Below, in pieces: positions 33,995 to 40,567 of a stretch of 40,618 bases of DNA (position 1 is the first letter of the stretch; every line of letters begins with the position of its first letter). The notes below the pieces were generated by a model, which searched no databases, was not told the origin of the DNA, and was given only the letters and a program-made list of their open reading frames with translations. This DNA is from Methanoregula sp. GTDB lineage: Archaea > Halobacteriota > Methanomicrobia > Methanomicrobiales > Methanospirillaceae. The DNA lies in NCBI GenBank assembly GCA_028679185.1, contig JAJRBZ010000080.1:1-40618 (forward strand), in the 5' to 3' direction. The translations under genes were made by a program, and so were the position numbers.

Positions 33995-34206
33995 ACACCT
34001 ATTTTTAATACTTCCGGGAATGATAAACTGGTTGTCCCAGGGCGGGTATGGTAAATTGCAGGGAATTGTGTAGAAACGAATTAACCTGATTTCCAAATTT
34101 GTTCAAGTCTGATAAACCTCGGGATCAAACGACTACACAAACCAGGGCAGCCGGCTGGATAATCCACCATGCAACGCTCTTTGCGACAGAAAAAGGCGGT
34201 AAAAAT

Positions 34207-35115
34207 ATGGACCTAAAAAATTTCCTTACAGGCGCAGGAACACCAAAAAACCTCACGAACGTAATTCTCCTTTTAAGTACACAGGCTCAGGACGTGAAGG
34301 ACGGTTTTCTCCGGAACTGTATGAAAACACAAACCTGTGAACAGACCAGAAACGTATTTGGCGAAGAGCAGATGGCTCTTGACAAGTATGCTGACGGGGT
34401 GTTTGTTTCCGGACTTAAAAAGTCACGACTTGTCCGTTATATCGCGACAGAAGAACAGGAGCAGCTCATCGAAATAGAGAACCCGATAAACAATTTTGGC
34501 GTTGTTATTGATCCACTTGATGGTTCCTCGCTTATTGATGTGAATCTTTGTATAGGATCGATCATCGGTATCTATCCCGGGCATGTTCTGGAAAAAGGTG
34601 CCAAGATGGTTGCTGCCCTGTACATCCTGTACGGGCCTCTCACCACTCTGACATTAACAACAGGAAAGGGAGTTCATGAATTCGTCCTTGACGATACAGG
34701 TGAATTCATACTCATGCAACAGGATATCAAAATCCCGGAGGGGAAAATATACGCACCTGGTGCCCTGAGAAAGGATTATCTCCCGGCTCATGCACGGTGG
34801 ATTGAGCAACTCGAGCAGGCGGGATATAAACTACGCTTCAGTGGCTGTTTTGTTGCAGATGTACACCAGATCCTCCATAAAGGTGGGGTCTTTACCTATC
34901 CTGGATTCAAAGGCAGGGAAAAAGGAAAACTGAGACTATTATACGAGGCAAATCCCATGGGGAAAATCATTCATGAGGCTGGCGGGGCAATCAGTAACGG
35001 AAGGACAGACATCCTGGGTATTACACCAGAAGCAATCGACCAGGTCACTCCCATCTATGTGGGAGGTACAAAAGAGATCAGACTTATTGAAAAGTATATG
35101 ACGGAAGGGGGATAA
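34207..35115 (+). CDS. fbp: Fructose-1,6-bisphosphatase, class I
   Basis: Hydrolyses fructose-1,6-bisphosphate to fructose-6-phosphate in gluconeogenesis. The class I metal motif 'DPLDGSS' (in [15 protein letters not shown]) is clear, and 'GIYPG', '[18 protein letters not shown]', '[14 protein letters not shown]' and '[26 protein letters not shown]' are all characteristic. ATG 34207 gives 302 residues and has AGGCGGT seven bases upstream. A longer frame from 34099 starts with TTG and adds 36 residues not typical of the family. The aldolase gene follows after 18 bases in the same operon. The class is mainly bacterial/eukaryotic, and the bases here are visibly AT-richer than the FBPA/ase gene, so transfer is possible. 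Confidence 0.93.
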
Positions 35116-35133
35116 ATCAGGTGTGATTAGCAT

Positions 35134-36273
35134 ATGAAACAAAACGATTATGGTCCAATCCCTGGTTCAACAATATTTCGAGGCATTTCCGGCCGAAAAA
35201 CAATTATCATGGCAGCTAACACACGGATTGCTACTGTCGCCAGGGGAATTTTCAAAGCTGCAAAGGAAACTGATTCTGCGGTTTTCATGGAGCTTGCCCG
35301 GTCTGAATGTGACCTGAAAGGAGGGTATACAGGTTTAACTCCAAAGGATTTCTCAGAAAAGATGAGAGAAGCTGCAGAGGCGACCCGGTTTGATATCTGG
35401 GCTCTTCATGCTGACCATATTACTATTAAGACAGGAGACGCAAAAGAGATCGAAAGTACAAAACAGTTAATCGATGCCCAGATTATGGCAGGGTATACAT
35501 CATTTGCCATTGATGCATCACACCTGTTTAATTTTGAAGGAAAAAATGTCCGTCAGGAACTGGACAAAAATATCCTGGTCACTTCCGAACTGGCCATTTA
35601 TATTAAAAACAACATGAAAGGGAAGGATTTCGGTCTGGAAGTGGAAGTGGGGGAGATCGGGAGAAAAGATGGTCAAGGGATGATCCTGACAAAACCCGAA
35701 GAAGCGGTTGAATTCATAAAAGCCCTGCATGATAACGGAGTGTATCCGCAGGTGCTGGCAATTGCCAATGGAAGCACGCACGGACACGTGTATGATGAAA
35801 AAGGGAACGTAATCGAGCAGCTTTCCATCGATATCCCACGGACAAAAGCTGTTGCAAAAGCATTACGGGATAATAAACTGAATGTCGGCATTGCCCAGCA
35901 TGGGATAACAGGAACTCCCCGGGATCTCATTAATCAGCATTTCCCCAAAGGGGATATCATCAAAGGAAACGTCGGAACGTTCTGGCAGGATGTCGTATTC
36001 AATGCCCTGAAAGTGTACGAGCCTGCATTGTATAAAAACATCCAAGAATGGACTCTGGAGAAATACCGGCCCGCAAATCCCGGGAAAAAAGACAGCCAGA
36101 TATTTGACGGGAATTGCAAGTTTGCGATCAAAGAATTTTTCAAAGAGATCTATTCGGTAGAAGAAGATACTGAACAGGCAATTCTGGCAATGACATATGC
36201 TGAAAGTCTCGTCTTTTTCAAATCGTTCAGTTCATATGGGTCTGCATCTCTTGTGAGAAAAGTTCTTGAGTAA
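35134..36273 (+). CDS. Class II (zinc) fructose-bisphosphate aldolase-like protein
   Basis: A metal-dependent TIM-barrel ketose-bisphosphate aldolase. Zinc ligands are recognisable: 'WALHADHITI' (His92 and neighbours), 'ANGSTHGHVYDEKG' and 'AQHGITGTPRDLI', the last matching the HG-x-x-G-T motif. After a basic N-terminus, 'AANTRIATVARGIFKAAKETDSAVFMELARSE' is the class II start. At 379 residues it is longer than the usual 285-350. The substrate may be fructose- or another ketose-bisphosphate. AGGTGTGA lies seven bases before ATG 35134. It pairs with the class I FBPase upstream, which gives a complete bacterial-style step from triose phosphates to fructose-6-phosphate. The next gene is its archaeal counterpart. 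Confidence 0.85.
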   Translation: MKQNDYGPIPGSTIFRGISGRKTIIMAANTRIATVARGIFKAAKETDSAVFMELARSECDLKGGYTGLTPKDFSEKMREAAEATRFDIWALHADHITIKTGDAKEIESTKQLIDAQIMAGYTSFAIDASHLFNFEGKNVRQELDKNILVTSELAIYIKNNMKGKDFGLEVEVGEIGRKDGQGMILTKPEEAVEFIKALHDNGVYPQVLAIANGSTHGHVYDEKGNVIEQLSIDIPRTKAVAKALRDNKLNVGIAQHGITGTPRDLINQHFPKGDIIKGNVGTFWQDVVFNALKVYEPALYKNIQEWTLEKYRPANPGKKDSQIFDGNCKFAIKEFFKEIYSVEEDTEQAILAMTYAESLVFFKSFSSYGSASLVRKVLE

Positions 36274-36295
36274 AAATTCAGCGCAACTTTTTTCT

Positions 36296-36303
36296 TTTTA
36301 AAA
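36296..36303 (+). promoter_or_regulatory. TATA-like box of the FBP aldolase/phosphatase gene
   Basis: TTTTAAAA lies about 28 bases before ATG 36328 and follows a pyrimidine tract. This spacing indicates an own promoter with a very short or absent leader, separate from the upstream FBPase-aldolase pair. Confidence 0.45.
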
Positions 36304-36327
36304 GAGATTCTTTACTGTGATTTTCTC

Positions 36328-37425
36328 ATGCCGAAGACTACGATTTCCGTTATCAAGGCAGATGTGGGAAGTTTCCCCGGACACTCCCGCACTCACCCGA
36401 AGCTTCTTGAGAAGGCAGCAAAGATGCTCAAGGAAGAGGAAGGTAAACTGCTCATAGACTCCTTTGTCACCCATTGTGGTGACGACCTTGAATTGATCAT
36501 GACGCATACCCATGGTGTGGACCATGAAAAGGTTCACAAGCTGGCATGGGATGTCTTTATGGAATGCACGGCAATAGCAAAAAGCCTGAAACTCTATGGT
36601 GCCGGCCAGGATATGCTTGCCGATGCATTTTCCGGAAATGTCAAGGGTATGGGCCCGGGTGTTGCCGAGATGGAGTTTGAGGAACGGGGAAGTGATCCCG
36701 TTCTTGTTTTCATGGCAGACAAAACTGAGCCGGGCGCATGGAACTTCTTCCTCTACAAGATCTTTGCCGACCCGTTCAACACGGCAGGTCTTGTGATCGA
36801 CCCATCTATGCATAAGGGTTTTGTCTTTGAGGTTCACGATCTTATTGAAAAACGCCGTATCATGTTCAAGTGCCCGGAAGAGATCTATAATCTTCTCGCG
36901 TACATTGGTGCACCGTCGCGGTACGTGATTAAGCATGTGTTCAAGCGCGAGGGCGATATTGCTGCTGCATCCAGCACCCAGCGCCTGAGTCTGATCGCGG
37001 GAAAATACGTTGGCAAGGATGACCCGGTCATGATCGTCAGGGCCCAGAGCGGTTTTCCTGCGGTCGGTGAAGTGATCGATCCATTCTGCACACCGGTACT
37101 TGTCGCCGGCTGGATGCGTGGATCGCACCACGGTCCGTTAATGCCTGTCGGTCTGTGCGATGCCAACTGTACCAGGTTTGATGGGCCACCCCGGGTCATT
37201 TGTATGGGTTTCCAGGTCAGCAATGGAAAACTCATCGGTCCTGCAGATATGTTTGATGATGTAGGATTCGATCGTGTGCGGGCGCGTTGTAATGAGATTG
37301 CTGACCTTATACGGGCGCAGGGGCCATTCGAGCCTCACCGCCTCTCGCTTGGGGAGATGGAATATACTACTCTCCCGGGTGTTGAAAAGGTACTTTCAAA
37401 ACGATGGGAGCCGCTTCCTCCATAA
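36328..37425 (+). CDS. Fructose-1,6-bisphosphate aldolase/phosphatase (bifunctional, class V)
   Basis: The archaeal one-way gluconeogenic enzyme that both condenses triose phosphates and dephosphorylates the product. The 365-residue sequence is full length and typical: 'ISVIKADVGSFPGHSRTHP' (metal ligands), 'LIDSFVTHCGDDLELIMTHTHG', 'LYGAGQDMLADAFSGNVKGMGPGVAEMEFEERGSDP', 'ADKTEPGAWN', 'GKYVGKDDPVMIV' (Tyr and Lys three apart, matching the catalytic Tyr/Lys pair of the aldolase step), and 'GSHHGPLMPV'. It has its own TATA-like box. Its base composition is GC-richer than the class I FBPase and aldolase just upstream, so it looks like the resident enzyme. The two systems overlap in function. 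Confidence 0.95.
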   Translation: MPKTTISVIKADVGSFPGHSRTHPKLLEKAAKMLKEEEGKLLIDSFVTHCGDDLELIMTHTHGVDHEKVHKLAWDVFMECTAIAKSLKLYGAGQDMLADAFSGNVKGMGPGVAEMEFEERGSDPVLVFMADKTEPGAWNFFLYKIFADPFNTAGLVIDPSMHKGFVFEVHDLIEKRRIMFKCPEEIYNLLAYIGAPSRYVIKHVFKREGDIAAASSTQRLSLIAGKYVGKDDPVMIVRAQSGFPAVGEVIDPFCTPVLVAGWMRGSHHGPLMPVGLCDANCTRFDGPPRVICMGFQVSNGKLIGPADMFDDVGFDRVRARCNEIADLIRAQGPFEPHRLSLGEMEYTTLPGVEKVLSKRWEPLPP

Positions 37426-38239: not shown

Positions 38240-38740
38240 ATGGTAAAATACAGGATTCCGCTTATCATCCAGTGCCTCATTTTTTTGATCCCACTGAATA
38301 TTTACATGTGGGGGGATTGGATTGTTGTTGATTTACAGTGGGCGCTCTTCCGTTATCAACAATCTCCGTTTGGGAACAGCCTCATCCCGGGATACAAGGA
38401 TATCAATTATATTTTTCTGGGGCAGACTACGGGGCTGTATAATATCCTTTCAATATTATTCTGGATAACAGGAGGCGTTCTTCTCATCATCGGACTGCTT
38501 CTGATAATTCAGGCAAATCTCGATGAGAGATTAATACTCATAAAGAAGGCTTCAATTTTTACCGTAATTTCTGGTATCTTATTTGGTTTGTCAGCTCTGT
38601 TACGATTCTTCGGTGGGTTTGCCATCCCTGTTGGCGTTCCAATTGTCATGTTTTTCGGTTGGTGGATGTACAAAGAGAAGTTTGAACCAGACAGGACAGA
38701 AGAGCCCTTGGATGATAAAGAACCAGCTGTGCCTGAATAG
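38240..38740 (+). CDS. Four-helix membrane protein of unknown function
   Basis: The 166-residue product has hydrophobic segments at about 6-25, 62-90, 100-122 and 125-145. A long polar loop after the first helix includes 'WALFRYQQSPFGNSLIPGYKDINY', and an acidic C-terminal tail includes 'EEPLDDKEPAVPE'. I recognise the general pattern of Methanomicrobiales integral membrane proteins but no named family. No SD is evident before ATG 38240. It lies 84 bases after the winged-helix gene in the same direction, and the sensory gene downstream has its own SD after 147 bases; no functional link is shown. Confidence 0.65.
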   Translation: MVKYRIPLIIQCLIFLIPLNIYMWGDWIVVDLQWALFRYQQSPFGNSLIPGYKDINYIFLGQTTGLYNILSILFWITGGVLLIIGLLLIIQANLDERLILIKKASIFTVISGILFGLSALLRFFGGFAIPVGVPIVMFFGWWMYKEKFEPDRTEEPLDDKEPAVPE

Positions 38741-38887: not shown

Positions 38888-40567
38888 ATGATTTCTGTTT
38901 TGTTTGTCGATGATAACTCCGATCTTTTCGGCCATATCCGTTCATTTCTGGAAAAAGCCGGAGATATCAGGCTCGACAACGCACGCTCAATAAAACAGGC
39001 AATGGAAAAAACCAAAGGCCGTACGTATGACGTAATCGTCTGCTATGAACAGATACCTGAAGTGAACGGTATTGAATTTGTCTCCGATATGACGGGATTG
39101 GAATTTTTAAAATATCTCAAATCGCAGGGAAATTCGACACCGGTTATCCTGCTCTGCAGGCGAGGCAATAACAAAATTGCTGTTCAGGAAGTCAGTATTG
39201 GCACGGATGTCAGGCTCCCAAAAAACGGGGACGTCCGCCCGCATCTGCAAGAAATTGTAACCCTTATCAAACAGACAATGCTCCGCAGAAAAGCTGAACG
39301 GGAGATCAAGGTGCAGAATGATCAGCTGACTGCCATCCTTTCTGCAACACCCCTGGGGATATTCCAGGTACATAACCGGCTCATAGCATGGGTGAACCAC
39401 CAGTTCGCAAAAATGCTGGGCTGTGAAGAATCTTACCTTATTGGAAAAGACATGCAAAGCATTTTTAAGACCGCTGAAGACTGTGGCCACGTCTGCCATG
39501 AACTCCAGGTCAGCTGGAATGGACGGGGGTTTGGCAATACAGAATGTAAGCTGGTAAAACAAGACGGATCGTATCTTGTCTGCCATCTGCAGGTCCAGAT
39601 GGTTGATCCCCGCGATATCAGTAAAGGGGGCACATTTATAGTAACCGATATATCAGAAAAAAGAAAAATTGCTGATGCCCTCAAAGAGAGCGAAGCAAAA
39701 TACCGTGAAGTCATCCAGAATACCCAGAGTATCATCATCAGGATGGATACATTAGGAAATATCACTTTTTTTAACCATTTTGCACTCTCCTTTTTTGACT
39801 TTACCAGTGACGAAGTAATTGGCAAAAATGTTATTGGTACTATTGTTCCCACAAAAACCCGCTCTGGTCATGACCTCTCCATGATGGTAAATGATCTTGG
39901 GTTTAATGCTGAGGGCTATGCTGTCAATGTCAACGAGAATATACGCCGGAATGGGGACAGGGTCTGGATCGCGTGGATAAATAAGGCGATCCGTGATGAG
40001 AAAGGTCACATAATTGAAATCCTGTGTATTGGCAACGATATTACTGATCGAAAGCGAACCGGAGAGGTTCGTATCAGTACCGATACCTGGAAGGACATTG
40101 TCGTAGCAGATACCGATGTAAAAGAAGAAGTCTTTGATGTGGTCTTCCACATATGCACTGAAATATCGATCGAGGGAAGGGAAGGCAAACCGGTAGGTAC
40201 AACGTTTCTGCTCGGTGATGCCGATAATGTCATGGCAAAATCGCGGCAGATATCAATCAATGCATTTGAGGGGCAGAAGCCTGAATCGCGTATTGTCACA
40301 AACCAGGACATCAAGGAAAATATCAAAGAATTTGCCCAGCTTGATGGAGCTTTTGTTATTGACGGTGATGGATATATCCGTGCACAAAGTCGTTACATCA
40401 CCGTCGATACCAGTAATGTTTCCTTACCCAAGGGCATGGGCACCCGTCACAACTCAGTTGCTGCAATAACACAGGTCACAAATACAGTTGGCATCGTAGT
40501 ATCCCAAAGCGGTGGAGGGATTACCATTTTCAAAAACGGGTTGATCCTTAAAAAGATTACTCTCTGA
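38888..40567 (+). CDS. Pseudo-receiver, two PAS domains and C-terminal DAC (diadenylate cyclase) domain
   Basis: Predicted sensory cyclic-di-AMP synthase. Residues 1-130: receiver fold with D8-D9 and K112, but the phospho-acceptor site is Tyr53 (VIVCYEQIPEVNG), so it is a pseudo-receiver. Residues about 140-258: PAS 1 (ILSATPLGIFQVHNRLIAWVNHQFAKMLG). Residues about 270-388: PAS 2 (SIIIRMDTLGNITFFNHFALSFFDF) with a PAC-type end. Residues about 398-559: DAC, with the motif D486-G487-A488 (QLDGAFVIDGDG) and R520-H521-N522 (KGMGTRHNSVAAITQ), where the last residue of the usual RHR is Asn. 'TVGIVVSQSGGGI' and 'FKNG' fit the fold. GGGAG precedes the ATG. There are no membrane helices. Activity is inferred; a regulatory or inactive DAC is possible. 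Confidence 0.82.
   Translation: MISVLFVDDNSDLFGHIRSFLEKAGDIRLDNARSIKQAMEKTKGRTYDVIVCYEQIPEVNGIEFVSDMTGLEFLKYLKSQGNSTPVILLCRRGNNKIAVQEVSIGTDVRLPKNGDVRPHLQEIVTLIKQTMLRRKAEREIKVQNDQLTAILSATPLGIFQVHNRLIAWVNHQFAKMLGCEESYLIGKDMQSIFKTAEDCGHVCHELQVSWNGRGFGNTECKLVKQDGSYLVCHLQVQMVDPRDISKGGTFIVTDISEKRKIADALKESEAKYREVIQNTQSIIIRMDTLGNITFFNHFALSFFDFTSDEVIGKNVIGTIVPTKTRSGHDLSMMVNDLGFNAEGYAVNVNENIRRNGDRVWIAWINKAIRDEKGHIIEILCIGNDITDRKRTGEVRISTDTWKDIVVADTDVKEEVFDVVFHICTEISIEGREGKPVGTTFLLGDADNVMAKSRQISINAFEGQKPESRIVTNQDIKENIKEFAQLDGAFVIDGDGYIRAQSRYITVDTSNVSLPKGMGTRHNSVAAITQVTNTVGIVVSQSGGGITIFKNGLILKKITL

Follow-up and report, generated by a model that had tools for sequence, protein, structure and literature searches.

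Methanoregula is a genus of methanogens found in peat and sediments, and a gene in one of its genomes raises the question of why a predicted c-di-AMP synthase should be joined to a set of sensor domains, and whether such a protein makes c-di-AMP at all. To our knowledge, work on c-di-AMP covers only a small number of archaea. The window analysed here is a stretch of 40,618 nucleotides of Methanoregula sp. (GenBank assembly GCA_028679185.1, contig JAJRBZ010000080.1), and the gene lies near its 3' end, encoding a protein, P0001, in which a receiver and two PAS domains precede a diadenylate cyclase (DAC) domain (Table 1).

Gene and domain architecture

The open reading frame of P0001 is intact from ATG to TGA, encodes 559 amino acids and is preceded by a purine-rich GGGAG stretch. 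The first-pass annotation, made from the sequence alone, had described a DAC domain fused to two PAS domains and a receiver, and Pfam matches bear this out for all of them: Response_reg at residues 4–115, two PAS stretches at about 147–258 and 271–390 with PAS models above the Pfam cut-off (PAS_9, 1.2e-16), and DAC (PF02457, DAC/DisA_N) at residues 427–551 (4e-18; score 65.6 bits, with the cut-off at 27). The same syntenic architecture is present in many Methanoregula genomes, so that it is neither a chance arrangement nor an assembly artefact, and an assembly or frameshift chimera was ruled out by these syntenic orthologues. The full-length AlphaFold model resembles the PAS proteins DosP, FixL and PpsR in structure matching, although its pTM of 0.48 leaves the mutual placement of the domains uncertain; it has a long helix at residues 117–153 ahead of PAS1 and a second helix, at 256–278, linking PAS1 to PAS2.

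Table 1. Position of the P0001 gene and of its encoded parts within the window
Feature	Coordinates	Strand	Basis
Receiver-PAS-PAS-DAC protein P0001	38888..40567	+	ORF and translation, Pfam, syntenic Methanoregula orthologues
Pseudo-receiver, residues 1–115	38888..39232	+	Pfam Response_reg, 1e-13
Tyr53 codon, at phospho-acceptor Asp position	39044-39046	+	Alignment of 33 homologues
PAS 1, about residues 141–262	39308..39673	+	Pfam PAS_8 / PAS_9, AlphaFold
PAS 2, residues 263–392	39674..40063	+	Pfam PAS, 2.1e-16
Diadenylate cyclase (DAC) domain, residues 403–557	40094..40558	+	Pfam DAC, CdaA/DisA sequence and fold matches

The diadenylate cyclase domain

The assignment of a DAC fold to the C-terminal part, which the first-pass annotation had made from the signatures LDGAFVIDGDG (residues 485–495) and GTRHNSVAAIT (518–528), agrees with the structural evidence. 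Residues 391–559, the last 169 of the protein, are modelled by AlphaFold with a mean pLDDT of 85 and match DisA and CdaA structures; each of the 50 PDB entries that Foldseek listed is a diadenylate cyclase, the best being DisA, CdaA and CdaM/DacM (probability 1.00), and in a PDB sequence search every match with E below 0.001 was a diadenylate cyclase. The motifs of the domain are DGA at residues 486–488, GTRHN at 518–522 and VSQS at 538–541.

In Listeria CdaA, ATP is contacted by Leu31, Asp71, Gly101, Thr102, Arg103, His104 and Ser122, the main chains of Leu88 and Glu123 also touch it, and Glu124 serves the metal (PMC7288161). Asp71, Gly101, Thr102, Arg103, His104 and Ser122 correspond to D486, G518, T519, R520, H521 and S539 of P0001, all of which are invariant or nearly so, and D486, G487, A488, G518, R520 and H521 are invariant across 33 homologues. 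Mutants of Leptospira CdaA showed the Asp and the first Arg to be essential, with reduced activity in the Ser mutant (PMC12974146); motif-wide RHR-to-AAA mutants leave the three residues of that motif unseparated (PMC3328451, PMC4568413).

Two features of bacterial CdaA and DisA are lacking in P0001, namely the last Arg of RHR, replaced by Asn522, and the Glu of VSEE, replaced by Ser541. The first of these changes had been taken in the first-pass annotation to leave activity open, a doubt that other archaeal DACs take away for the most part. The third Arg is absent from the CdaA ATP-contact list of PMC7288161, and among the archaeal DACs that we gathered this residue is R, L, M, I, V, A, S, T, G or N, with the preceding Arg-His fixed. 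Leu or Met occurs here in stand-alone DacZ proteins outside the organism's own family that are the sole DAC of their genomes (e.g. L097 and L103–L106), and Asn522 itself is invariant in Methanoregula, where the P0001 type is usually the only DAC. Since the third position is free in archaeal DACs, RHN gives no special reason against activity, and a dead enzyme was dropped as the main reading of this motif. At the position of the CdaA metal ligand Glu124, the stand-alone DacZ proteins of the order are also without Glu (SES), so that Ser541 is not specific to P0001, although this is no proof of activity.

Constraint is strongest on the DAC part in a set of 19 Methanoregula-type orthologues, where it has an identity of 81% and a median dN/dS of 0.067, compared with medians of 78% and 0.105 for PAS2, 62% and 0.171 for the receiver and 54% and 0.222 for PAS1, the least conserved domain; these Nei–Gojobori values, which span 0.10–0.27 for the non-DAC parts, are comparative only, as many pairs are near saturation. 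We consider the DAC domain likely to be catalytically active as a c-di-AMP synthase.

The receiver and PAS domains

The replacement of the phospho-acceptor Asp by Tyr53, noted in the first-pass annotation, is a conserved trait: Tyr is found in 32 of 33 aligned homologues, which come from Methanoregulaceae and one neighbour, and in the genome set Cys or Phe stands at this position in single orthologues (G085, G011). Receivers of the same genome keep the Asp in the corresponding stretch (...IISDYAMP, IVDYDLP, IISDYQMP), where P0001 reads IVCYEQIP. In the homologue alignment Asp9 is kept, Asp8 is kept in nearly all Methanoregula but gives way to His beyond that genus and its near relatives, and the Thr/Ser position of beta4, residue 90, varies among C, G, A, S, H and N. 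AlphaFold predicts the alpha4 region as a strand in place of the usual helix. Judged by its sequence, the domain is a pseudo-receiver without the usual phospho-acceptor Asp.

The N-terminal half of P0001 is like the receiver-PAS sensors and histidine kinases of Methanomicrobiales. Within the same genome, the receiver-containing stretch of L277 is 32% identical to that of P0001, and the PAS domain of the histidine kinase L276 is 43% identical to PAS2. The receiver-PAS histidine kinases have a HisKA/HATPase output, whereas P0001 has a DAC output and a receiver without the phospho-acceptor Asp. This kinship with same-genome sensors suggests domain shuffling between receiver-PAS sensors and DAC.

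As to what the PAS domains might perceive, no LOV-type Cys motif was seen in them, and candidate heme-ligand positions were not conserved in a by-eye check of the homologue alignment. When PAS2 and the receiver were compared with the PDB, the matches were weak and of a generic kind (RpfR PAS at 4e-6, NtrC receivers) and gave no clue to a cofactor; in all, no sensing residue or cofactor site was identifiable in P0001. Redox or ligand sensing by the PAS domains is plausible.

DacZ and sensor-fused DACs in the Methanoregulaceae

The distribution of P0001-like proteins was compared with that of the canonical stand-alone DacZ, for which PF21754 (DacZ_A) is the marker domain. The family and genus of the organism, labelled f1 and g1 in our genome set, are inferred to be Methanoregulaceae and Methanoregula. 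Among 120 Methanomicrobiales genomes (25 within f1 and 95 outside, counted by hand), a DAC is present in 119, and DacZ_A is found in 91 of the 95 genomes outside f1 versus one of the 25 within it. A larger set of 108 f1 genomes gave a single DacZ_A match and one weak one; DAC (PF02457) was found in 100 of these 108 genomes, including 59 of the 59 good ones. Neither P0001 nor its genome has a DacZ_A match.

Among the sequences gathered, GGRHR-type DacZ is confined within f1 to two genera, g7 and g10; the DacZ_A model undercounts g10, whose divergent DacZ came to light through the DAC search and was assigned from its position in the tree. As the g7 and g10 copies are nested within the DacZ branch of the order, DacZ was ancestral and has been lost in the rest of f1. 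Seven single-contig genomes have exactly one DAC each, in every case of the receiver-PAS-PAS-DAC form (G017, G064, G085, G093, G109 and G171 of g1, and G011 of genus g3). Taken together, these genome comparisons indicate that sensor-fused DACs have probably replaced DacZ across most of the Methanoregulaceae, a stronger point that the first-pass annotation missed, and sensor control may govern most of the c-di-AMP synthesis in that family.

The organism's own genome differs from these seven in that P0001 is not its sole DAC. The second, L001:1480-3174 (-) on contig C33, is of the same design, having 565 amino acids, two PAS domains and a DAC by Pfam, a GTRHT motif and a receiver-like N-terminus that is visible in homology search only; orthologues are also carried by some further Methanoregula and by relatives (L070, L203, L207, L209). 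An overlooked canonical DacZ in this genome was considered and rejected: the DAC search finds only P0001 and this paralogue, both sensor-fused.

Proposed mode of action and alternatives

We think it probable that P0001 is a soluble, active c-di-AMP synthase set by its N-terminal sensor module, and that its type took over c-di-AMP synthesis in the Methanoregulaceae as the stand-alone DacZ was lost. The receiver would not be phosphorylatable at the usual place; the pseudo-receiver and the PAS pair, joined by the long helices, could instead dimerise and bring the DAC domains face to face, and a signal read by the PAS domains, or a partner bound by the pseudo-receiver, may then change the relative orientation of the two DAC active sites. 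With DacZ gone and, in several single-contig genomes, the only synthase sensor-linked, Methanoregula should allow a direct test of the input signal on a single protein.

Several other readings bear on individual steps of this scheme. The one that deserves most weight, though we consider it unlikely, accepts an active DAC but no regulation by a signal, so that the receiver-PAS-PAS part would serve only for dimerisation or localisation and synthesis would be constitutive or set by substrate. DAC activity requires a dimer and PAS domains commonly dimerise, the receiver and PAS1 evolve fast, and a recognisable cofactor site is lacking, all of which fits; yet the constraint on PAS2 comes close to that on the DAC domain, and the most similar PAS domain encoded by this genome belongs to a histidine kinase, which is a sensing context. 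It is less probable still that DAC catalysis has been lost and that the domain is a receptor for ATP or c-di-AMP. The Asn and Ser changes at the third RHR position and the metal Glu would speak for this, but both are normal in archaeal DACs, the residues of the active site do not vary, and several single-contig genomes, in which this is the sole DAC, would have no c-di-AMP synthase if it were dead.

If the receiver were still phosphorylated, at another residue, P0001 would be a conventional response regulator whose output is a DAC. The acidic pocket of Asp8 and Asp9, kept in nearly all Methanoregula, is the point in its favour, and we nevertheless regard this as very improbable, given the near-universal Tyr53, the His in place of Asp8 in other genera, the variable beta4 position and the strand modelled at alpha4. 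A regulated, active synthase with a pseudo-receiver remains the reading that we prefer.

Relation to known diadenylate cyclases

DACs have reportedly been sorted into families by domain architecture by Galperin in 2023. The DAC domain of P0001 is homologous to that of DacZ/CdaZ, known from Haloferax volcanii (HVO_1660) and Methanocaldococcus jannaschii, and the best NCBIfam match of P0001, NF041371 (2e-33, below its cut-off), links it to these proteins. It differs from them in lacking the DacZ_A/PK_C-like N-terminal domain, and P0001-type DACs lie outside the DacZ branch, across a well-supported split (99 on the DacZ stem). The DacZ of the order carries LDGVF and GGRH[R/L], where the P0001 type carries LDGAF and GTRH[N/S/A]. 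With bacterial CdaA and DisA, P0001 shares the fold, the DGA and RH motifs and the equivalent of Ser122, but identity is only about 20%, the N-terminal modules are different, and P0001 has RHN for RHR and no VSEE Glu pair.

The claim of the first-pass annotation that this build is unlike the best-known archaeal DACs thus stands with respect to stand-alone DacZ, and needs correction in that the kind is on record. Five archaeal DAC classes, DacV to DacZ, are cited by Braun et al. 2019 (PMC6741144), after Corrigan and Gruendling 2013, with DacX sequences from Methanoregula boonei (A7I8S2) and Methanoregulaceae among those given. The match with P0001 is by organism; as single-contig g1 genomes have one DAC, of the P0001 architecture, DacX is very probably the P0001 protein type, which would make P0001 a member of a kind already recorded. 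What is new here is the lineage-wide replacement of DacZ, as it appears from the genomes, together with the details; a limited literature search found no account of the loss of DacZ, the conserved Tyr pseudo-receiver, the paralogues or TrkH-DAC proteins.

Other fusions in the DAC clade

The DAC clade to which P0001 belongs is joined to a range of inputs, comprising receiver-PAS-PAS, PAS-PAS, PKD repeats, TPR and, in family f3, TrkH. The underlying tree is a quick one of 155 columns in which sub-branches within the P0001 clade are weakly resolved, and we therefore make no claim on the number of origins of the receiver-PAS-PAS form. It is possible, and we put this forward tentatively, that a soluble sensor enzyme bearing a conserved Tyr pseudo-receiver has taken on housekeeping c-di-AMP synthesis in Methanoregulaceae, that the same DAC clade was repeatedly fused to TrkH, AAA, PKD and TPR inputs, and that c-di-AMP is a multi-input signalling hub in these methanogens and their relatives, as opposed to the product of a single stand-alone synthase.

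A TrkH potassium transporter and a DAC are combined in one protein in three f3 genomes, at L073:3393-5453 (+), L090:368-2566 (-) and L080 (cut by the contig end), with TrkH matches of 1.3e-47 and 3e-45 and the DAC above cut-off. Potassium transport is a main target of c-di-AMP in bacteria, and such fusions in relatives would couple c-di-AMP synthesis physically to it. PKD-repeat proteins with a C-terminal DAC form one branch of the clade (L068:3309-5393 (+), L047:3713-5380 (+) and 13 more). Methanoperedens has DACs of the same clade as short proteins, and two records of about 600 amino acids have the DAC at the C-terminus: L178:4663-6459 (+), with an AAA ATPase domain (AAA, 3.4e-38) and Vps4_C ahead of it, and L186:932-2722 (+), assigned by tree and length only.

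Genomic neighbourhood and possible downstream components

The gene order conserved in Methanoregula is FBPase, aldolase, FBPase_3, LSm, winged helix, membrane protein and DAC, followed in most Methanoregula by a convergent gene that resembles acyl-CoA synthetase (named by eye from its sequence). Upstream of the DAC gene, positions 34099-37425 of the window hold a compact gluconeogenesis cluster, kept in many Methanoregula, in which two different fructose-1,6-bisphosphatases, FBPase and FBPase_3, lie either side of a class-II-type aldolase gene. Immediately 5' of the DAC gene, at 38240-38740, is a gene for a 166-residue membrane protein without a Pfam match, whose place is likewise kept in many Methanoregula. 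Elsewhere the genome encodes several proteins with TrkA_C (RCK_C), among them L273, a K+ channel that has TrkA domains. A TrkA_N-DHH-DHHA1 fusion, L266:1420-2988 (-) on contig C12, is a candidate nucleotide phosphodiesterase linked to an RCK-type domain, and could act on c-di-AMP or be an unrelated phosphoesterase.
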